From a virus, in the IMG/VR virus record IMGVR_UViG_3300029267_002130, positions 1-20,534 of that record: a stretch of DNA of 20,534 nt; one strand, written 5' to 3'. Positions within the stretch are counted from its first letter, which is position 1, and the number at the start of each line of letters is the position of its first letter. The notes below the pieces were generated by a model, which did not search any database, was not told the origin of the DNA, and worked only from the letters and a program-made list of their open reading frames with translations. The translations under genes were made by a program, and so were the position numbers. This document shows positions 160-9,605 of this stretch, in pieces.

Positions 160-759
160 ATGATGGCGATTATGGGCACTGGGTTCGGCACTTCAATGAC
201 TGTCGGCCCCTGGGGGCACGTTACGTCGAGCTTTGATCCTGGTGCAGGCGCACAGCAGCGACTCGCGGAAGAGCAATGGGCTTTTGAAAAGCAGAAGTAT
301 CAGAACGAACTAAAGCAGTCCAAGGCGGCGGGGACCAGCCTCAGCAAGCTCATTAACCAGTACAACCAGGGCTGGGCTGAGGCGAAGGCCGCGAATGAGG
401 CACGTTACCAGCAGGGGCTCGGGATCATCGACCAGACCACGGGCCAGCGCGAGGCCGACATCCGGAGCGATTACGCCGGGCAGCGGTCGGACATCATGCA
501 GCAGCTTGCCAGGACTGGCATGGGGAATACCACCATTTCCCCGACGATGGGGCTCGGTGTCGAGCGAGAAAAGCAGTCTGCATTAAACCGTCTGGCCGAT
601 AGCCTCCAGGGCACCAAGCTCGGGTGGATCGAACGCCGCGAGGACGAGTATCCGGAGTCCGATATGATTGTCTCGCTCATTAACCAGCTTGGGAAGGGTT
701 CTGGCGGGCAGAGTGGTTCACAGGTCTATAGCGCTCTCGGGAATATGAGGATCGCATAA
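160..759 (+). CDS. Virion-associated coiled-coil protein, 199 aa
   Basis: Not assignable to a named family from sequence alone. The protein has a Gly-rich N-terminus (residues 1-30), a long charged helix rich in Glu, Gln and Lys (about 32-115) that should form a coiled coil, a Gly/Thr/Pro-rich break with GMGNTTISP near 120, and a second amphipathic helix ending around 165. Two ATGs are in tandem (160 and 163). The AAGGGG at 151-156 is better spaced for the second, so the true product may be 198 aa. Its stop overlaps the next start (TAATG at 757-761). Length, helical character and position before two larger helical proteins resemble the first of the three internal virion proteins of T7-like phages. 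That parallel is an inference. Confidence 0.75.
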   Translation: MMAIMGTGFGTSMTVGPWGHVTSSFDPGAGAQQRLAEEQWAFEKQKYQNELKQSKAAGTSLSKLINQYNQGWAEAKAANEARYQQGLGIIDQTTGQREADIRSDYAGQRSDIMQQLARTGMGNTTISPTMGLGVEREKQSALNRLADSLQGTKLGWIERREDEYPESDMIVSLINQLGKGSGGQSGSQVYSALGNMRIA

Positions 760-1832
760 TGGGGATTCGAGTCAAGCACGGAGAGGGCGACATTACGGCC
801 CTGGCGCAACTTGCCGCCTTGGCCGGCGCTACTGAGGCCAGGACACCGCAGGCACCGCGAATCGATCCCCAAGGGGCCCCGCGAGGCGGCGGCGGTGGTG
901 GCGGCGGCCGAACGCGGACTAGCCGCGGCCCAATGATGGCCGACTATGGCCGGCTGCACTACCCGTCTGATCGCGAGCTAGCCGCCGAGGCGAAAACGCG
1001 AGAGATGGAGTATCAGCGAAAGTTGATCGAGCAGGAGGAAGCTCAAAAGCGGGCGATTCCGGTTGACTTCAAGTATACGCCAAAGCAGCGGGCTGAGATT
1101 GCAAGGCTTCAAAATGCCAAGCAGCAACTCACACAGAACAAGCGATATTCCGAACAGGAAAAGGCGCTACTCGCGCAGGAGATTGACACGCAAATTGATA
1201 CAATCAAGCCGACTGGTATTCCCCGCGATCCAAGTGCCCCGCAGTACCCGGAAGGTCGTGGGCCCGGGGATACGTTCCAGGAGCCAGACGGTTCGTGGTA
1301 CACGATCGACCAGGACGGCAATAAGAAGCTCATGTTGCGCTACGATCAAACAAAGGAATACATTGAGCAGCAGGCTGCAAGGAGGCGAGAGGAGAAGATT
1401 CTCGATATTCGACACAAGTTAATCGCGGACAAGATTAAGACGAAAGATAAGCTCGGTATGGAGTCAGAGCGTTATCGCACACCAGAGGAAGTGGACCAAG
1501 CGATGGCGATTATTCTTGGCGAAGCACCGGAAGGTGAGGTGTATCGCGAGGACTTGGAGTCTGAATTACGCAAGCGCATTGCCGCGAAGAAAAAGGAAGC
1601 TGTGCCGAAAAAGCCGAAGAAACGCGAGTACATTGGATGGGCCCGCAACCTCGGCGTGAAGGCAACGGAGGAAGAAAAAGGTATGCCGCGTGAAGTGCAG
1701 ATTGCCCAGGCGTTTTTGCGGGAGGTTGGCCAGCGTGCTGCTGCTGGTGTCGAACCTCCGGCGCAAATGGCGGACGCTGTGAACCAGGCGACTGCGGTAC
1801 TGGAGTGGTGGGACGCGAAGAATGCCGATTGA
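759..1832 (+). CDS. Charged, helix-rich virion-type protein with poly-Gly tract, 357 aa
   Basis: Function unknown. The ATG overlaps the upstream TAA by one base, indicating translational coupling. The N-terminal 60 residues are low in complexity, with an uninterrupted run of eight glycines followed by an Arg/Thr/Ser-rich stretch. The rest is dominated by Lys, Glu, Arg and Gln helices (about 65-145 and 195-320), with a short beta-like insert around 165-190 (PEGRGPGDTFQEPDGSWYTI) that could be a small folded module. No signal peptide or membrane segment is seen. It ends 11 bases inside the giant downstream gene. Position between a coiled-coil protein and a 1513-aa protein suggests an internal virion or ejection protein, by analogy with T7 gene order only. 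Confidence 0.75.
   Translation: MGIRVKHGEGDITALAQLAALAGATEARTPQAPRIDPQGAPRGGGGGGGGRTRTSRGPMMADYGRLHYPSDRELAAEAKTREMEYQRKLIEQEEAQKRAIPVDFKYTPKQRAEIARLQNAKQQLTQNKRYSEQEKALLAQEIDTQIDTIKPTGIPRDPSAPQYPEGRGPGDTFQEPDGSWYTIDQDGNKKLMLRYDQTKEYIEQQAARRREEKILDIRHKLIADKIKTKDKLGMESERYRTPEEVDQAMAIILGEAPEGEVYREDLESELRKRIAAKKKEAVPKKPKKREYIGWARNLGVKATEEEKGMPREVQIAQAFLREVGQRAAAGVEPPAQMADAVNQATAVLEWWDAKNAD
885..908 (+). repeat. GGC/GGT codon run encoding eight glycines
   Basis: Eight consecutive GGC or GGT codons lie inside the 357-aa gene. The tract is a simple-sequence repeat prone to slippage and probably encodes a flexible linker between the N-terminal tail and the helical body. Confidence 0.9.
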
Positions 1833-4800
1833 TCGCGATGTACTGAACTTCGGCCGGCAATTCAGGGAAGGGGCGCTGGAAGTGCGCGAAAAGGGCGTCA
1901 ATCAAGATGTCCTGGAGGTTGGCCGCAATCTCAGGGATTATTATGCGCAGCAGCCGCCGAAGCGTCAGGAGTTAACGGAGGCGGAGCGCCGCCAGTCCGA
2001 GCAGATTATCGAGCGCGAGCGGCTGCTGGCGCAGGCCAGCAAAGAGCTTGGTGAGTCAAACTGGCCGGGCGTTAAGGCGTATGCAATTGAGGCTGGGGCG
2101 GATATTGTCTCGCCGATTGCCAGATTGACCGGCCACGATGAGTATGCCGATCGGATGAATCGCTTCGCGGATGCGGTCGAGCAGGTCCAGCGAAAGCGCG
2201 AGCGTGGCGGGATCGTCCCCGACGTTATTCAGAGCGGCGTCCGCGGGGCTGGACGATCCCTCACGACAATGGGTGCCGCCGGGATGGCAGGCGGCCCCGC
2301 CGCGGCGATTCTCGCGGCCTCCGGCCAGGAGGCGAACCGGGCCATTACTGAGGGGCGGGACGCCGGGCTGAAGGGCACCAAACTAGCTGGCTATGCAGTT
2401 AGCCAGGGCGTTATCGAGGGAGCCCCGGCCGCGGTTATGCAGAAAATGGGCCTGGGTGGCGTCGAAACCATGGTTGCAGGGAAGCAGGCCGTGGCTGGCG
2501 GGGTCCGCGAGGGGCTAAAGCGGCTCGGGATGGCAATCGCCCAGGAAGTCCCGGAAGAACTCGTGACTGAGATCAGCCACGGCGTGGCCGCGAAGGTGGC
2601 CGACGTGGACCCCGAGGCCCTCACGAAAGACAGCCTCCGGCAGATAGTCAATGAAACGACAGTCCAGACGGTGATTGCGTCGGCATTTGCTGGGTCCCCG
2701 GGGATCGTGCGGCAGATGAGTCGCGAAAAGGTGGCTCGGGTGACTGGCGAGATCGTGGCCTACGCCAAAGAGGGGCGGGTCCCATCGCGGAAAACCTGGA
2801 AGAAATGGGGCCTGGCTCCCGAGTACGGCGAGTCTCGCAAGCAGCGGAGGGCGTTCACGGAGGAAGTAAGTAAGGCATTTACGCCCGCTCCAGAGGCCCG
2901 AGGGGCCAAGACGGCCCAGGAGCCGGCCAAAGCCCAGGAGGCCGTGAGCGAGCCGCAGACGGACGCTGACAGGGCGGTAGCGGCCCAGGAATCGCCGACC
3001 GTCGAGCCTAAAAAGGCATGGGAAGTATTTAAGGTGGGGAAGACGACCGTAGTAAAGAACCCCACGATTCAGGACAGGCAAGAAATATCGGCAGAGTTCA
3101 GAGAGAAGTATCCCAGCGCCCCGAAGGGCGAGCCAAAGACGAGAAGTACGACAGACTCCGAGGGTAACGTATACCTCTGGATAGCTGATAAGACTCACAC
3201 CGAGATCGAGCCGGCAATCAGCCGGAGGTACGGCACGGCAGTCAGTCAGAACCCGCCTGTAGCCGCTGAGCCGGCCAGGGTCCTCCAGCAGAGGGCCATC
3301 GGGATCGCCGGCAACCTAACGACGGAGGCCCTGGAGTCAGGTGCTCCGCTTCCGGCGGACGGCATTCACGCGCCAGAAACGGCCGCCAAGCCAGGGAAGA
3401 GGAAGAAGTCGCCCGTAGCCTCGAAAGCACGGGCGGCGGCCGAAGACCTTGTGTCGATAGCGTCCCCGGTCGCAGCCGGTGGGCGGCGGGCCAGGCGAGC
3501 GGGGCATATCCTGCGCGGCCAGATGGCTCGTGCGGCTCAGTGGGACGAGGCGTCCAAGCATTCGCTCGACAAGATTGAGCGGTCATTCTACAAGATGTCG
3601 CCCGACGAGCGCCTTGAGTTTATTGACCGCATGGAGTCCGGGACAGAGCAGCCGGGTGAGTTAAACGCCGTCGCAAAGGTAATCCGAGGTGAGTTGGACG
3701 CGGCGCGAGAGCGTGTTCAGAAGGTCGGGAAGCTAGAGAAATTCAACGAAGACTACTTCCCGCATTTATGGAAATCCAGTCCAGAAGCAGACACGGTGCT
3801 CGGGCAGATTTTTCGGAAGACCTATCGGAAGTCTGGCTTCCTCCGTAAGCGGGTTATCCCGACCGTGAAGGAAGGTCGCGAGGCTGGCCTCGAACTTGTA
3901 ACCGACAACCCGGCGGAGTTGGCGTTCATGCGGATTCATCACATGAACGAATACGTAGCGAAGACGGAGGCGATGGGCCTACTGAAGCAACATGGCCTGG
4001 CTGTGTTCGTGCCGGCCAGCTTGGAGAAAGATTATCTGCCGAGTGGATTCAGGTTTGTTGATGATCCGGCGTTCTTGGTGCAAACGTCCGGAGACGTGAC
4101 AGTCACGGAAGCGTTCGACAAGCTACTCGTGGATCAACTCACGTCAGTCGCAAACTCTCTGGGAGTAGCGACAAGACGGGTAACGAAGCTGGAGTCGTTT
4201 GGTGAGACCGTCGTAACGAAGAAGGGACGTAGGATCATTAGGACGCGGGTAGGGACACCTGTAGCGACACTCGCACACGAGATCGGGCACAATATCGGCG
4301 AAATCTACGGCCTGTACGATTACATGGTGGAGAGTGGCGGTAAGGCGGTGCAGCAGGAGTTGGACGCGCTGTCGTCACTCCGCGTCGAGAGATCGATACC
4401 GGAGACGGAAGGGTTCGTCGAATACTCTAAGACGCCGGAAGAGCAGGAGGCCGTTATCTTAGAAGCGTGGCTTGCAACACCGGAGAAGATGCGAGAAATC
4501 GCGCCGAAGGTGACTGGGATATGGCAAGACTTCCTGGCCGCTAACGAGCCACTTAGTCCGCTGTTAATGCTGGACCGCTCGCTCGTGCTCGGGACGCAGG
4601 AACAGACGATCAAGCAGCAGGGCGTGAGGGTGCTGGGGCGATGGGCCATGCCAGATAAGGTCGCGGGGATGATTGAGAATCAACTGTCGCCTGGGTTGAG
4701 GGCTAATCCGAATACTGCTGTTCGCACGTTATACAATACTGCGCGCATGTATGGCAACGCAATGAATCAGGCTAGCTTAGCATTATCTGCGTTCCATGGA

Positions 4801-6363
4801 ATCAACGTGACGACTGACGCCGTTGCTACACAGACTGGCGTGTCAATTTTGAAGCTGTTGCGTGGTGACTTACCGAGTGCGGCGGCGGAGTTCGTCACGG
4901 CCCCAATGGCAGGCTTTAAGTCGCTGTGGCGCGGAAATAAACTCATTAAAGCGATGCGCAGCGACCTCAGCCAGATCAAAAATGAGAAGCTAGCAGACAC
5001 AATTGAGGACGTTATCAGGGCTGGCGGACGGGCCAGTATGGACGCCAGGTACCATAACCAGTCGATTAAGGCTCTCAGAGGCACATTCTATGACCTGAAG
5101 TTCGGGGGCCCCATAAGGAAGGTATCCTCGGCCGTTAAGCTCCCGGTTCAGGGTATCTTCGCGACCCTGGAGGCAGCGGCAATACCAGTGATGGAATACA
5201 TGGTGCCGCGGCTGAAGCTTGGAACCTTTCAGTATTTAGCTGGTGATATATACAGCAGGTCAGCTAACCTTACCGAGGAGCAGATTACCGAGCAGTTAAC
5301 TCAAGCGTGGGATAGCGTTGACAATCGCCTTGGGCAGCTACCCTACGACAACTTATTCTGGAACCAGTACGTCAAGGATGTGAGTATGCTGGCCGTGCGG
5401 TCAGTAGGCTGGAACCTCGGTAGCATCCGCGAGTACGGTGGCGCAATCACGGACATCTTCACTACCAAGGAACGGATTGCGCTAGGCGGAGAGCTAATCA
5501 GTGGCAAGCAAGCGTATGTAATGGGGGCGGCAATTTCTTATGCCACGCTCGGGGCCGTGCTGACCTACCTGTTTACTGGAGAACGGCCGAAAGAACTGAA
5601 AGATTACTTCTTTCCGCCAACTGGCAATCGAAACCCAGATGGAAGCGCTGAGCGGATTGGCCTGCCGACTTACTCCCGTGATGTGTACTCGTGGACGCAT
5701 GATCCGGCGCGAACGGCACACCATAAGGTGCATCCGATGTGGGGCACATTCGCCGATATGTGGGTAAACGAGGACTACTACGGAACGGAAATTCGGAACG
5801 CAGACGACCCGTTGATGGCCCAGCTAATTGACAGCGTGCAGCATGTTGGCGAAGCGTACATACCATTCTCGGTCAAGAACTACCTGCGGATGCGTGAGGC
5901 GAAAGAGCCAGCCGTCCAGGCGGCTATTACGAGCGGTCTCGGAATCACGTCCGCGCCGGCATACATCACGAGAAGCAACGCGCAGAAGTTGGCGATGCAG
6001 TACCTCGCGGACAAAATCCCGGCTGGTTCCAGGACGCGAGAGAAAGCTGAGAGAAGCAAGAGGCGCAAGGGGCTAGTTCGGCGATTTCGGGCCGACGAGG
6101 AAGTTACGCCAGAAGAACTGGAAGGGTTCGCCGGCACAGAGCGAAAAGGGATTCTGGCAGAATCGAGGCTGACGCCGCTCCAGGCGTCAGTCAAGAGACT
6201 ATCGCTGCGCGAATCGTTGGACGTTTTCCTGCAAGGGACAGCCGAAGAGCGCAAGCAACTTTGGCCGATCATTGCGGCAAAGCGCAATAACGCGAGAACG
6301 ATAGACCAAGAGTTGGCTGAGTATTACGTTGAGGTGGCAAACCTGTTTCTTTCTAAGGAGTAG
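1822..6363 (+). CDS. Giant internal virion-type protein with zinc metalloprotease domain, 1513 aa
   Basis: Start ATG 1822 overlaps the upstream stop by 11 bases. The layout is as follows. Residues 1-60 are charged helices. About 75-295 is an Ala/Gly-rich region with hydrophobic helices (GAAGMAGGPAAAILAASGQE) and a conserved-looking EVPEELVTE, typical of phage ejection or large polyvalent proteins. A Pro/Ala/Glu-rich linker spans about 350-420. A mixed region follows to 800. The site HEIGH is at 819-823. Downstream, EEQEAVILEAW holds Glu876 and Glu881, one of which could be the third zinc ligand of a gluzincin, followed by LATPEKMREIAPKV. About 900-1450 is a long helical C-terminus with several hydrophobic stretches. 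Size, position and composition fit an injected virion protein that acts in the host envelope. The peptidase call rests on the motif plus context. Substrate is unknown, and self-processing of virion proteins is one possibility. Confidence 0.85.
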   Translation: MPIDRDVLNFGRQFREGALEVREKGVNQDVLEVGRNLRDYYAQQPPKRQELTEAERRQSEQIIERERLLAQASKELGESNWPGVKAYAIEAGADIVSPIARLTGHDEYADRMNRFADAVEQVQRKRERGGIVPDVIQSGVRGAGRSLTTMGAAGMAGGPAAAILAASGQEANRAITEGRDAGLKGTKLAGYAVSQGVIEGAPAAVMQKMGLGGVETMVAGKQAVAGGVREGLKRLGMAIAQEVPEELVTEISHGVAAKVADVDPEALTKDSLRQIVNETTVQTVIASAFAGSPGIVRQMSREKVARVTGEIVAYAKEGRVPSRKTWKKWGLAPEYGESRKQRRAFTEEVSKAFTPAPEARGAKTAQEPAKAQEAVSEPQTDADRAVAAQESPTVEPKKAWEVFKVGKTTVVKNPTIQDRQEISAEFREKYPSAPKGEPKTRSTTDSEGNVYLWIADKTHTEIEPAISRRYGTAVSQNPPVAAEPARVLQQRAIGIAGNLTTEALESGAPLPADGIHAPETAAKPGKRKKSPVASKARAAAEDLVSIASPVAAGGRRARRAGHILRGQMARAAQWDEASKHSLDKIERSFYKMSPDERLEFIDRMESGTEQPGELNAVAKVIRGELDAARERVQKVGKLEKFNEDYFPHLWKSSPEADTVLGQIFRKTYRKSGFLRKRVIPTVKEGREAGLELVTDNPAELAFMRIHHMNEYVAKTEAMGLLKQHGLAVFVPASLEKDYLPSGFRFVDDPAFLVQTSGDVTVTEAFDKLLVDQLTSVANSLGVATRRVTKLESFGETVVTKKGRRIIRTRVGTPVATLAHEIGHNIGEIYGLYDYMVESGGKAVQQELDALSSLRVERSIPETEGFVEYSKTPEEQEAVILEAWLATPEKMREIAPKVTGIWQDFLAANEPLSPLLMLDRSLVLGTQEQTIKQQGVRVLGRWAMPDKVAGMIENQLSPGLRANPNTAVRTLYNTARMYGNAMNQASLALSAFHGINVTTDAVATQTGVSILKLLRGDLPSAAAEFVTAPMAGFKSLWRGNKLIKAMRSDLSQIKNEKLADTIEDVIRAGGRASMDARYHNQSIKALRGTFYDLKFGGPIRKVSSAVKLPVQGIFATLEAAAIPVMEYMVPRLKLGTFQYLAGDIYSRSANLTEEQITEQLTQAWDSVDNRLGQLPYDNLFWNQYVKDVSMLAVRSVGWNLGSIREYGGAITDIFTTKERIALGGELISGKQAYVMGAAISYATLGAVLTYLFTGERPKELKDYFFPPTGNRNPDGSAERIGLPTYSRDVYSWTHDPARTAHHKVHPMWGTFADMWVNEDYYGTEIRNADDPLMAQLIDSVQHVGEAYIPFSVKNYLRMREAKEPAVQAAITSGLGITSAPAYITRSNAQKLAMQYLADKIPAGSRTREKAERSKRRKGLVRRFRADEEVTPEELEGFAGTERKGILAESRLTPLQASVKRLSLRESLDVFLQGTAEERKQLWPIIAAKRNNARTIDQELAEYYVEVANLFLSKE

Positions 6364-6367
6364 CACC

Positions 6368-6793
6368 ATGAGATTGTTGCAATTGCTTTCGTTGTTGAGA
6401 CGTGTGCCCGTCCGCGATCTGATTAACTTCCCAGACGACCTGAGTGACAGCGAGGACGTGCGCCGCTGGACTATGGCGGCTATCGAGACGGGCGTTGTGC
6501 TCGCCGAACGCACCGTAATCGAGATCGACGATACGATTCTTGATTTCGCTGCCGATTTGGTTGCCAGAGATGAGGCGTGGGCGCTGATTCACGGCGTCGT
6601 CCTGGCGGTTATTGAGGGGCGATTCACGGCCGAGCAGAGCCTCCAATGTTCGCAGGAGCTTCAAGAGGTTACTGAGTGTGCATTCAACCCCATGATGATT
6701 TTCGCGATCATCCAGGCCGTCCAGGCTGGTATCAAGATCCTGAAGGCGCTGCGCGAGGCCCGTCAACAACGTCAGATTTCATTTGCTGTGTAA
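6368..6793 (+). CDS. Hypothetical late protein with hydrophobic C-terminal helix, 141 aa
   Basis: I chose ATG 6368 because AAGGAG at 6355-6360 lies 7 bases upstream. The frame is open further back, but that part lies inside the giant gene. No family is recognised. The N-terminus is basic and Leu-rich (MRLLQLLSLLRRVPVRDLI) and looks like an amphipathic helix rather than a cleavable signal. The middle is acidic. Residues about 110-130 (NPMMIFAIIQAVQAGIKIL) form a hydrophobic helix followed by a basic tail. It sits 4 bases after the giant virion gene and its stop precedes the start of the protease lipoprotein by 10 bases. A membrane-active late protein (accessory virion or lysis protein) is possible but unproven. 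Confidence 0.7.
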   Translation: MRLLQLLSLLRRVPVRDLINFPDDLSDSEDVRRWTMAAIETGVVLAERTVIEIDDTILDFAADLVARDEAWALIHGVVLAVIEGRFTAEQSLQCSQELQEVTECAFNPMMIFAIIQAVQAGIKILKALREARQQRQISFAV

Positions 6794-6803
6794 GGAGGTA
6801 CCT

Positions 6804-7796
6804 GTGAGACGACTGCTCTTGATTCTGCTGTTGGTGTTGCCGGGTTGTGTGCCCATGTCGGACGGCGCATGCCCGGATGATGATTGTGATAAGTGCCCGA
6901 AGGGCGGCTGTCCGTCGCAGGAATTGCCGATCCCAGAGCCCGGCGACCCGATCGTCGATCCGGAGCCGGAGCCGTTCGATCAGCTTTACGAATACCTGAA
7001 AGCGACCTGCCGTGTACGCGGCGGAGGTTCCGGCGGGAGTGGGTGCTGTTTTGCGATTGACGACAAGTACGTCTACGTACTCACTTGCCGGCACGTCGCC
7101 GGGCGAACGAAGACATTCATTGTCGAGTTCTGGTTGGACGGCCATATCACTGGCGAGTACAAGGCGACGGTCGTGAAGACCCTGAAAGTTGATGCGGCGA
7201 TCCTTAAGATTCCGGTAAGTGCGTTCAAGGAGGGCAAGTTACCGAACGCAATTCCTATCGGCGAGGCGTCCCCGGAAGAGGATACCGCGATTATTTCGAT
7301 CGGCTGTCCAGGGCTCTCATGGCAATCGCTATGGGAGGGGCATGTCAAGGGGAGCGCGAACATGAGCCCGAAGTACAACGGCGGCCGGACGAGCTTCACG
7401 TTCGTCCCGCCACCTAAAGGTGGCCGGTCTGGCTCCGCGATCTTCCAGGACGGCAAGATTGTCGGAATCTTGTGGGGTTCCGATGGCGGGATCGGCTACG
7501 CCGTGCGCTGCGAGGATTTTCGCAAGGGGGCCCTGAGTGCGATTGGCAGCCAGGAGGGTTCCGGTAATTTCTTTTTCAGGGCCGACTGGTGCCGATTCTG
7601 TCCGCAGATGAACGAGATTGTAGTTCAGTTGGTCCAGGAGGGGGTCGACATCCAAGTGATTGACTATGACGAGAATACGACGTTCGCCGAGATGTACGAG
7701 ATCGGTGGCCTGCCGGCCTACGTGAACCGGCTGGGCGAGACGCTTTCTGGGGTACAGCCGATCGACCGGCTGCGCGAATTCTACGGGAGGGAATAG
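6804..7796 (+). CDS. Lipoprotein with trypsin-like serine protease fused to thioredoxin-like domain, 330 aa
   Basis: I chose GTG 6804 because AAGGAGG at 6792-6798 fits it and it gives a clean signal sequence: MRRLLLILLLVLPGC, a type II lipobox with Cys14 as the predicted lipidated residue. A short Cys/Pro-rich spacer follows. The protease domain (about 70-235) shows His97 in TCRHVAG, Asp130 in KVDAAILKI and Ser209 in GRSGSAI, which is a complete S1-type catalytic triad. The C-terminal 80 residues look like a thioredoxin fold: WCRFC with Cys263 and Cys266, VDIQVIDYD, and GLPAY as the cis-proline loop. The expected location is the outer face of a host membrane. It lies between virion genes and the holin-like gene, so it may act in lysis, in envelope quality control, or as a lysogenic-conversion factor. 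Domains are clear; the biological role is inference. Confidence 0.88.
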   Translation: MRRLLLILLLVLPGCVPMSDGACPDDDCDKCPKGGCPSQELPIPEPGDPIVDPEPEPFDQLYEYLKATCRVRGGGSGGSGCCFAIDDKYVYVLTCRHVAGRTKTFIVEFWLDGHITGEYKATVVKTLKVDAAILKIPVSAFKEGKLPNAIPIGEASPEEDTAIISIGCPGLSWQSLWEGHVKGSANMSPKYNGGRTSFTFVPPPKGGRSGSAIFQDGKIVGILWGSDGGIGYAVRCEDFRKGALSAIGSQEGSGNFFFRADWCRFCPQMNEIVVQLVQEGVDIQVIDYDENTTFAEMYEIGGLPAYVNRLGETLSGVQPIDRLREFYGRE

Positions 7797-7797
7797 G

Positions 7798-8064
7798 ATG
7801 AGATGGCTTGCGTGTGGGCCGATATGGGGAATGGCTGTGCTCTTGGCGACCGAGGGGGCCCCGGGGATTCCGCAAATCGCCCCGGAGATGCTTCAGGGCG
7901 GGGCCCTGGCGGTCCTCGGCTGGACAATATACTATGTGCTGTCGAGAGTCGGCCCGGCCCACACGAAGGCCCTGACAGAGCAGCGAGACGCCTTCCTGGA
8001 GGCTTTGGCTGCTGAGCGAAAGGAGATTCGAGAACTGCTTGCGGCGCTCAGGAGGCCAGATTGA
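7798..8064 (+). CDS. Holin-like small membrane protein, 88 aa
   Basis: ATG 7798 follows GGGAGG (7785-7790) by 7 bases and begins one base after the upstream stop. The product has a hydrophobic N-terminal segment (about 3-18), a Pro-rich turn, a clear transmembrane helix around 34-50 (GGALAVLGWTIYYVLSRV), and a charged coiled-coil tail rich in Glu, Arg and Leu ending the protein. One or two membrane segments plus a charged cytoplasmic tail, at the end of the late operon just before a terminator, is the typical layout of a phage holin. No endolysin gene is recognisable next to it. An unrelated small membrane protein cannot be excluded. Confidence 0.65.
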   Translation: MRWLACGPIWGMAVLLATEGAPGIPQIAPEMLQGGALAVLGWTIYYVLSRVGPAHTKALTEQRDAFLEALAAERKEIRELLAALRRPD

Positions 8065-8088: not shown

Positions 8089-8119
8089 GAGCCGGCCACG
8101 TCCACGGCCGGCTCTTTTT
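8089..8119 (+). terminator. Rho-independent terminator closing the late operon
   Basis: A perfect 9-bp GC-rich stem (GAGCCGGCC at 8089-8097 with GGCCGGCTC at 8106-8114) encloses an 8-base loop and is followed by five T at 8115-8119. It lies 25 bases after the holin-like gene and has the strength expected to stop late transcription from entering the integrase region. Confidence 0.92.
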
Positions 8120-8363: not shown

Positions 8364-8392
8364 TTTACACCCGGAGACTTCCTAGTTATGCT
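8364..8392 (+). promoter_or_regulatory. Likely integrase promoter (TTTACA, 17-base spacer, TATGCT)
   Basis: TTTACA at 8364-8369 and TATGCT at 8387-8392 are separated by the optimal 17 bases. Transcription would start near 8399, about 50 bases before the integrase ATG. The region downstream is AT-rich, including TATACT at 8423-8428, which could be an alternative -10. Confidence 0.5.
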
Positions 8393-8447
8393 AAATTAGT
8401 GTGAATTGGTTCGGAAATGTAGTATACTTCCCTGGAGGGCGGTTGAC

Positions 8448-9605
8448 ATGGTGCGCCCCGAAGTCGCTGAGTACCGAGAGTGGAAGCTAGCCCACCCCGA
8501 CTGGCCCCTGACGGTCCATCCGAGCGGCCAGTGGAGTAAAAAGGTCAGGGGGCGTGTTCACTACTTCGGCCCGCTGACCGATCCCGACCGGGCGCTGCGA
8601 CTCTGGCTCCAGGAGCGCGACCACCTTCTGGCCGGACTGATCCCGCCGACACAAGACGGCAGCCTGACGGTCAGGGAACTGCTCGCCAAGCATCTCGCGG
8701 ACGTGGACGACCGGATCGTCACTGGCCAGCTTTCACCAAGGACTCGCCACGACTATCAGGCCGCCAGTCAACTCCTGGAGGATACCCGGCTCGCCGGGGT
8801 GCCGATCGCGTCTCTCGGGCCAGAGCACTTCACAGCAGTCCAGAGCGCCATGGAACGCCGGGGCTGGGGCCCATCGACGATGCGAAATCGCATCACGGCC
8901 GTCCGGACTGTCTTCCGCTGGGGTCGTGAGATGGGGCTGTACGACCGAGAGGTTCGCTATGGCCCGAGATTCAAGGCACCTGGAATCCACGCAATCGAGT
9001 ACGAGCGAGAGGAGCGCGGTGTATCTCGCTTTCTGGACCGGGAGGTAATTCTGGCGGCACTTCGGGTCGCAGAGCCCAGTATGCGGGTTGCGATCCTGCT
9101 AGGGATCAACTGCGGCTTCTATCAGAGTGATACGGTCGCCGTGACGCTCGACCGGCTCCACCTGGACGGCGAGATTCCCTACCATGATTTCCGGCGAGTC
9201 AAGACGAAGCGCCGTCGCATGGCGGCCCTTTGGCCCGAGACTGTTACGGCGATCCTGGATTACCGAGACAACCATCGTAAGCCGGTCGACCAGACGGAGC
9301 GGCGACTACTGCTGACCAGGCGGCGACGCGCACACAGCGGGCGGGAAGCCCTAGAGCGGGCGTGGCGCAAGCTGCTGGCAGACAAGCATCTCCCCGGGGC
9401 CGGAATCGGCTCCCTCCGCCACACCTACGCCACTGTCGTGGACCTCGTGCCCGATCAGGCCATGATCGACCTTACGATGGGACACGCCCCGAGATCGCTT
9501 CAGAAGCGGGTCTACTCACAACTCAATCTCAATGAACTAGGGAGACTACAGAAAATAGCGAATACTGTACGCGAATGGTTATTTGATGGATCGGTGCGGG
9601 ATTAG
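8448..9605 (+). CDS. int: Tyrosine integrase with non-canonical active site, 385 aa
   Basis: It catalyses site-specific insertion and excision of the phage. I chose ATG 8448 because GGAGGG (8434-8439) lies 8 bases upstream; the frame extends back to a TTG at 8406 that has no ribosome binding site. An N-terminal DNA-binding region (about 1-75) precedes a core-binding SAM-like helical domain (about 80-170: SLTVRELLAKHLADVD, SPRTRHDYQAA) and the catalytic domain. Recognisable are Lys252 in RVKTKR, Arg324 in SLRHTYATV, His346 in MGHA and the nucleophile Tyr356 in RVYSQL. The usual first Arg (TGLRxSE) aligns with GFYQSD, so that Arg is replaced by Tyr225, and the His of HxLR is Gly. I recall similar 'NCGF' boxes in planctomycete integrases. 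It is followed directly by the repressor promoter. Confidence 0.9.
   Translation: MVRPEVAEYREWKLAHPDWPLTVHPSGQWSKKVRGRVHYFGPLTDPDRALRLWLQERDHLLAGLIPPTQDGSLTVRELLAKHLADVDDRIVTGQLSPRTRHDYQAASQLLEDTRLAGVPIASLGPEHFTAVQSAMERRGWGPSTMRNRITAVRTVFRWGREMGLYDREVRYGPRFKAPGIHAIEYEREERGVSRFLDREVILAALRVAEPSMRVAILLGINCGFYQSDTVAVTLDRLHLDGEIPYHDFRRVKTKRRRMAALWPETVTAILDYRDNHRKPVDQTERRLLLTRRRRAHSGREALERAWRKLLADKHLPGAGIGSLRHTYATVVDLVPDQAMIDLTMGHAPRSLQKRVYSQLNLNELGRLQKIANTVREWLFDGSVRD

Follow-up and report, generated by a model that had tools for sequence, protein, structure and literature searches.

A viral serine protease fused to a thioredoxin domain

What would a phage do with a protein that joins a serine protease to a thioredoxin domain? 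The question is raised by a gene in a 20,534-nucleotide stretch of viral DNA (IMG/VR record IMGVR_UViG_3300029267_002130, positions 1 to 20,534; hereafter the window), in which all features given below by window position lie on the + strand. The gene, at 6804..7796, has a GTG start with AAGGAGGT just 5' of it and codes for 330 amino acids, and its product joins the two domains in a single protein that, from its sequence, is predicted to be exported. An initial annotation had described this 330-residue reading frame, its domain architecture, motifs and residue numbering, all of which match our ORF and domain evidence.

The stop-free frame that contains the gene is 350 codons long, compared with longest frames in 200 shuffles that averaged 224 codons and reached a maximum of 342; frame length alone is weak evidence for a gene at this position. 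A chance ORF is nevertheless ruled out by the orthologues and by dN/dS, which between the window and its L005 orthologue was 0.105 for the protease, 0.033 for the thioredoxin domain and 0.297 for the leader and linker. We conclude that the fusion gene is under strong purifying selection.

The protease domain has an HtrA/Deg-like fold

A Pfam match and a fold match to DegP together place a serine protease domain of the HtrA/Deg fold at approximately residues 61-240 (6984..7523). The Trypsin_2 profile (PF13365) was matched over its whole length by residues 78-222 with E=2e-14, over its cut-off. The best VIA fold match was DegP 8f0a (Z 23.1, rmsd 2.0, 179 residues), and the top Foldseek matches for the model were MarP/Rv3671c (E 6e-12) and DegS; the lists from these searches, in which the thioredoxin domain was not queried alone, were filled by matches to the protease domain. 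The catalytic residues His97 (codon 7092..7094), Asp130 (7191..7193) and Ser209 (7428..7430, in the motif GRSGSA) are each the same in all eight aligned proteases, which also keep the His-Asp-Ser order of the HtrA/Deg triad. They are likewise identical in 6/6 aligned orthologues, in agreement with the complete triad that had been assigned to this protein, and the alignment and the fold match together suggest that the three side chains would come together in triad geometry. The serine motif reads GRSGS in all six fusion orthologues and so departs from the HtrA-type GNSGG. HtrA proteins have a C-terminal PDZ domain, though not every member does; no PDZ family was found in the window protein by Pfam at E up to 1, and a thioredoxin domain is there instead. 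Since the protease is HtrA/Deg-like by fold, the thioredoxin occupies the place that PDZ domains have in HtrA proteins.

Residues 65-216 also gave a PADLOC match to LmuA (E=6e-9), as might be expected of a prophage-encoded anti-phage effector akin to the LmuA-type trypsin-like proteases. In Lamassu, LmuA works with a partner, LmuB, and among the three window proteins scanned the two direct neighbours were without a PADLOC match; the LmuA match is, moreover, limited to the protease part of a protein that looks exported. We consider such a function highly improbable.

The C-terminal domain resembles thioredoxin

The thioredoxin domain, approximately residues 250-330 (7551..7793), was assigned from PF00085 scores and from the topology of the structure model. 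Its CRFC active-site motif (Cys263-Cys266, 7590..7601) has both cysteines in 6/6 orthologues, across which Trp262, Cys263, Cys266 and Pro304 are identical, so that both WCxxC and the conserved proline are present. The window protein scored 21.3 bits against PF00085, just below the cut-off of 23.5, and the orthologues from L102 (25.2) and L140 (30.7) passed it; together with the invariant motif, this agrees with the thioredoxin-like WCRFC domain that had been noted at the C-terminus. A single-sequence phmmer search matched a PDB thioredoxin at E 9e-5. The profile built from alignment A8 gave E 1e-30, which is weak support because most A8 rows are thioredoxins.

Structure prediction, which the initial annotation had suggested, was carried out with AlphaFold2 on residues 58-330, using an alignment of 53 rows from which protease fragments of five other contigs had been dropped (an earlier alignment of 5 rows gave a poor model, pLDDT 42.6). 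The best model had a mean pLDDT of 83.1 and the other four 66.2-74.6. In the best model the protease part is mostly beta and HtrA/Deg-like in fold, and the C-terminus is predicted to be beta-alpha-beta-alpha-beta-beta-alpha, a topology that fits thioredoxin in a model whose alignment rows are mostly thioredoxins.

The N-terminus is hydrophobic

Residues 1-23 of the window protein form a hydrophobic segment (peak 2.12), and the hydrophobic N-terminus that ends in LPGC15 (6804..6848) is a probable lipoprotein-type or anchored signal. The protein had been described as a lipoprotein with a signal II sequence. This holds for the hydrophobic N-terminus with its LPGC15 and less well for the lipobox, which has a Pro at -2 and is atypical by the lipobox rule. 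The FAGC of L102 and the LMGC of L140 look like standard lipoboxes, and the N-terminus of L030 is hydrophobic only, with no lipobox; a hydrophobic N-terminal anchor is present in all of the fusion orthologues. Between the N-terminus and the protease domain of the window protein lies a linker rich in Pro and Glu. A Cys-rich linker sequence, CPDDDCDKCPKGGC (window 6864-6917), was seen in the window and G001 copies and was missing from L005, L030, L102 and L140.

The same fusion is found in other uncultured phages

The same domain order was found in five more phage lineages of IMG/VR, all uncultured, at 54-98% identity: 98% in G001 and G002 (one phage), 83% in G006, 57% in G003, 54% in G004 and, by tblastn, 55% in G009. 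Exact terminal repeats were present in G001, G003 and G006 (123 bp) and in G009 (114 bp), from which these four sequences (51.0-53.1 kb) appear to be circular and complete. For terminase and primase, the only relatives are distant ones (<60% identity) and belong to phages with a variety of hosts.

A tblastn search of 50,697 deposited phages with an E limit of 10 matched 71 records, none of which (0/71) covers both domains or 80% of the protein, and none of the 41 plasmid records matched (0/41) covers 80% of it. Two scans of bacterial genome contigs gave matches to 6 and 92 stretches, in which no relative is encoded; as the genome scans detect near relatives only, fusions of this kind may exist in cells. 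No phage protein with a protease-thioredoxin fusion was found in the literature, among the matches listed. The statement in the initial annotation that it knew of no phage gene described with this architecture is consistent with both the 71 matched records and the literature matches listed, and the search for the same domain order that had accompanied it added five phage lineages and, within the reach of scans for near relatives, no bacterial one. Each domain is common by itself.

One further protein (G005/L069) carries the fusion in reverse. Like the window protein, it combines Thioredoxin and Trypsin_2 in a single exported chain; it differs in the order, thioredoxin and then protease, and in a C-terminally fused tail that by eye is TM and coiled-coil-like.

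The fusion gene lies near the end of the virion-gene block

From 160 to 8064 of the window all genes are on one strand and overlap or are separated by gaps of a few bases. The fusion gene is the penultimate gene of this same-strand virion-gene block and comes right after the virion genes and a gene for a 1513-aa protein; in G001, a terminase and matches to a major head protein and a tail protein were found 5' of it. This position directly 3' of the virion genes would also suit a protease for virion assembly, or one carried in the virion for entry, but the hydrophobic anchor found at the N-terminus of every orthologue and the lack of any PHROG virion match make that very unlikely.

The ORF immediately upstream (6368..6793) codes for 141 amino acids with a hydrophobic C-terminal segment. 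L102 and L142 each encode a homologue of it at the corresponding position (blastp E 1e-29 and 3e-23), so that an upstream protein of 129-141 aa is common to these and the window, and it has no Pfam or PHROG family; the upstream protein of L030 and L140 is unrelated to that of the window, and the L140 copy has two hydrophobic segments. Downstream, 2 bp 3' of the fusion, lies an 88-aa ORF (7798..8064) that is TM/coiled-coil-like and is a conserved partner, with homologues that adjoin the fusion or its substitutes in other loci. Several homologues have a clear TM segment, which in the window copy falls below the threshold. None of the holin matches obtained with the small ORFs was significant (E 0.21-0.28).

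A terminator-like hairpin with a T-run follows at 8089..8119 and is in the same place, 21-31 nt past the TM ORF, in 5/5 loci scanned (the window, L005, L102, L140 and L030). The folding of the window hairpin has a z of -1.52 against shuffles, 14/200 of which were at least as good, and the L102 hairpin has a poor T-run. Counts of terminator-like sites per region were near the shuffle means and clearly above them only in L005 and L030. The weight of the argument from the hairpin is in its conserved place, which together with the position of the gene at the end of the virion block leans towards a late role at the envelope or in lysis.

The next transcription unit, outside that of the fusion, has a promoter-like site at 8364..8392, with the same hexamers at 5577-5605 of L005, just 5' of a gene for a tyrosine-type integrase (8406..9605; PHROG integrase, E=1.4e-20). 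A Pfam scan of this integrase gave no family, even with E values of up to 1 admitted. An integrase is 3' of the fusion in 4/6 loci (window, L005, L030 and L102), so that the fusion gene could be a moron, which counts against a function in lysis. Together with the HtrA/Deg fold and the membrane anchor, the neighbouring integrase would fit a role in lysogenic conversion, superinfection exclusion or envelope quality control, in which a lysogen would display the protease-reductase to trim or refold proteins of its envelope such as phage receptors. In G009, however, the fusion and the TM ORF are kept with no homologue of the window integrase by tblastn, although a serine recombinase is present about 14 kb away by eye, and we take this to mean that the cassette follows the virion block rather than the integration module. 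As the gene also lies at the end of the virion-gene block, ahead of the terminator-like hairpin, lysogenic conversion is disfavoured, and we rate this group of functions as distinctly unlikely.

Proteases and exported thioredoxins recur together

A scan with the TM ORF found contigs in which the slot of the fusion has other contents. In L144 it holds an exported trypsin-like protease without thioredoxin (L144:4095-5189), which also showed a weak match to collagen repeats. In L142/L143 it holds an anchored protein whose thioredoxin-like match falls below the cut-off (E 0.009) and a 330-aa papain-motif protein, and in another phage group (L134/L135) a papain-motif protein is directly 5' of an exported thioredoxin. 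The putative papain assignment of the proteins at L134:576-2084 (also in L135) and L142:2226-4454 comes from their motifs, their mutual similarity (E 2e-6) and a lone, weak match in the PDB (E 0.02); Pfam gave no support for it in L142. A 190-aa ORF of L032 that appeared papain-like by eye was supported by no search and was not counted.

Across 81 thioredoxin loci, a protease gene was found within 4 kb in 6/18 of those with an exported thioredoxin and in 1/63 of the others (p=3.5e-4), in a test to which the papain pair was added later on the strength of its motifs, whose profile included L030 and L069, and in which flanks stop at contig ends. The sole non-exported locus with a protease was L069, whose N-terminus is signal-like and just under threshold. 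With L069 reclassed and near-duplicates collapsed, in the exported set only, the counts became 6/15 and 0/62, and without the two fused proteins they were 4/13 and 0/62. Proteases and exported thioredoxins thus recur together in phage loci.

Several further arrangements were seen. In larger phage contigs, an exported thioredoxin has a trypsin-like gene 2-3 kb downstream (L064:3863-7261 and L123:5845-8762), in L064 with a subtilase-like ORF between the two by eye. In a 527-kb viral contig, the genes of an anchored thioredoxin and an exported trypsin-like protein are divergently oriented (L121:4978-7489), with a C39-like ORF beside the pair by eye. Single thioredoxins of lipoprotein type lie just 5' of a terminase-like gene at L032:1897-4228 and L037:417-1085, and L032 also has two further exported ORFs.

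These relatives bear on the possibility that the thioredoxin domain is part of an intramolecular redox switch, acting mainly on conserved cysteines of its own protease and toggling proteolysis by the redox state of the envelope. Cys69, 82, 95 and 168 are present in 6/6 fusion orthologues, whereas the thioredoxin-less protease of L144 has none at these positions and L069 has one; their invariance in the fusions and absence from L144 suggest redox gating, in a comparison whose thioredoxin-less side is a single sequence. Disulfide-linked control is described for MarP/Rv3671c, the top Foldseek PDB match, in the available text of PMC4992679, and P1 Lyz is reported to be under disulfide control. The likeness to MarP is, however, one of fold. 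We regard such a switch as unlikely but worth serious consideration; it is compatible with a role in lysis, from which it differs in the purpose given to the thioredoxin.

Peptidoglycan hydrolases were not recognised

Pfam scans of non-overlapping ORFs of at least 70 aa from G001, G003 and G009, with G006 left out, recognised no peptidoglycan hydrolase at E up to 1e-3 in 65 ORFs of G001 (a set with one row from G002 and one from the window, leaving out 98 of the 153 six-frame ORFs of at least 90 aa) or 64 of G003, and none among the best 25 of 26 families in 68 ORFs of G009; a few ORFs across piece borders were lost. Six-frame searches with eight hydrolase families were each negative in 9/9 related phage records, the positive control, phage Axy10, giving Glyco_hydro_108 at 9e-25, and CHAP was also negative in three deposited phages that were added. 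The PHROG listing for G001, the best 25 of 77 families, was not used for absence. No hydrolase was recognised in any of the four circular genomes that carry the fusion. As many ORFs match nothing and overlapping ORFs were omitted from the Pfam scans, the missing endolysin is a weak argument, and one of an unknown family may be encoded. A Band_7/SPFH-type protein is encoded in G001 and G003 (E 2.6e-13 and 9e-18).

A tentative role in lysis or egress

From its gene context we read the fusion as a late, membrane-tethered protease-reductase of a lysis or egress cassette, a reading that we hold tentatively and at somewhat less than an even chance. The protein would be exported by Sec in its real host and then anchored in the membrane. 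With its gene next to those of small membrane proteins where the virion-gene block ends, it would be produced late and would breach the envelope of the host during lysis or egress: the thioredoxin domain would open disulfides of envelope proteins, or of the protease itself, while the protease cuts. Since an ordinary wall-cutting enzyme was not recognised in any of these phages, the fusion may help to break the outer layers of the host. The best-known function of HtrA-fold proteases is, however, quality control and not lysis. Of the three functions that the initial annotation had left side by side, the evidence leans to a late one at the envelope or in lysis and away from lysogenic conversion, with envelope quality control a lesser possibility.

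A further proposal, which we consider doubtful, is that these phages lyse without an endolysin, the cassette dismantling a load-bearing, disulfide-linked protein envelope. Such a cassette would consist of an exported protease, a disulfide reductase and small membrane proteins; the protease would be interchangeable, HtrA-like or papain-like, and the pairing with thioredoxin would recur. An envelope of this kind has been proposed for planctomycetes, in which cysteine-rich wall proteins are described (PMC8567305), and a protein wall of planctomycete type is proposed as the target by analogy with that wall literature rather than from host evidence.

If the fusion does act in lysis, it would be a cloneable candidate for phage exit from hosts with envelopes based on protein and disulfides, and a protease with a built-in thioredoxin would be an architecture suited to disulfide-locked proteins. 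Lysis without an endolysin would, if true, be proteolytic and reductive in principle and not muralytic. Even without a role in lysis, a tie is made here between adjoining or fused proteases and the exported thioredoxins of phages, to which annotations usually assign no role.

Comparison with known systems

The window protein resembles the HtrA/Deg proteases DegP, DegS and DegQ (MEROPS S1C) in its protease fold, in the order of its triad and in being apparently exported and anchored. The serine motif of HtrA/Deg proteases is GNSGG; the window protein differs from them in having GRSGS, in its C-terminal thioredoxin with no PDZ match, and in being encoded by a phage. With thioredoxin (PF00085) it shares WCxxC, the Pro before the third strand and, in a model built largely on thioredoxin rows, a topology that fits the minimal fold, and it differs in having CRFC for CGPC and in being fused behind a protease and probably exported. 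The mycobacterial MarP/Rv3671c is similarly a membrane-tethered protease, with disulfide-linked control as described in the text available from PMC4992679; it is, however, a cellular stress protein, and the matched chains as listed have no thioredoxin domain. Finally, P1 Lyz and other redox-controlled exported endolysins are, in the accessible descriptions, like the fusion in being exported phage enzymes with possible control by disulfides, and they differ from it in that Lyz is a muramidase, whereas the fusion is a protease for which we propose a role in lysis.
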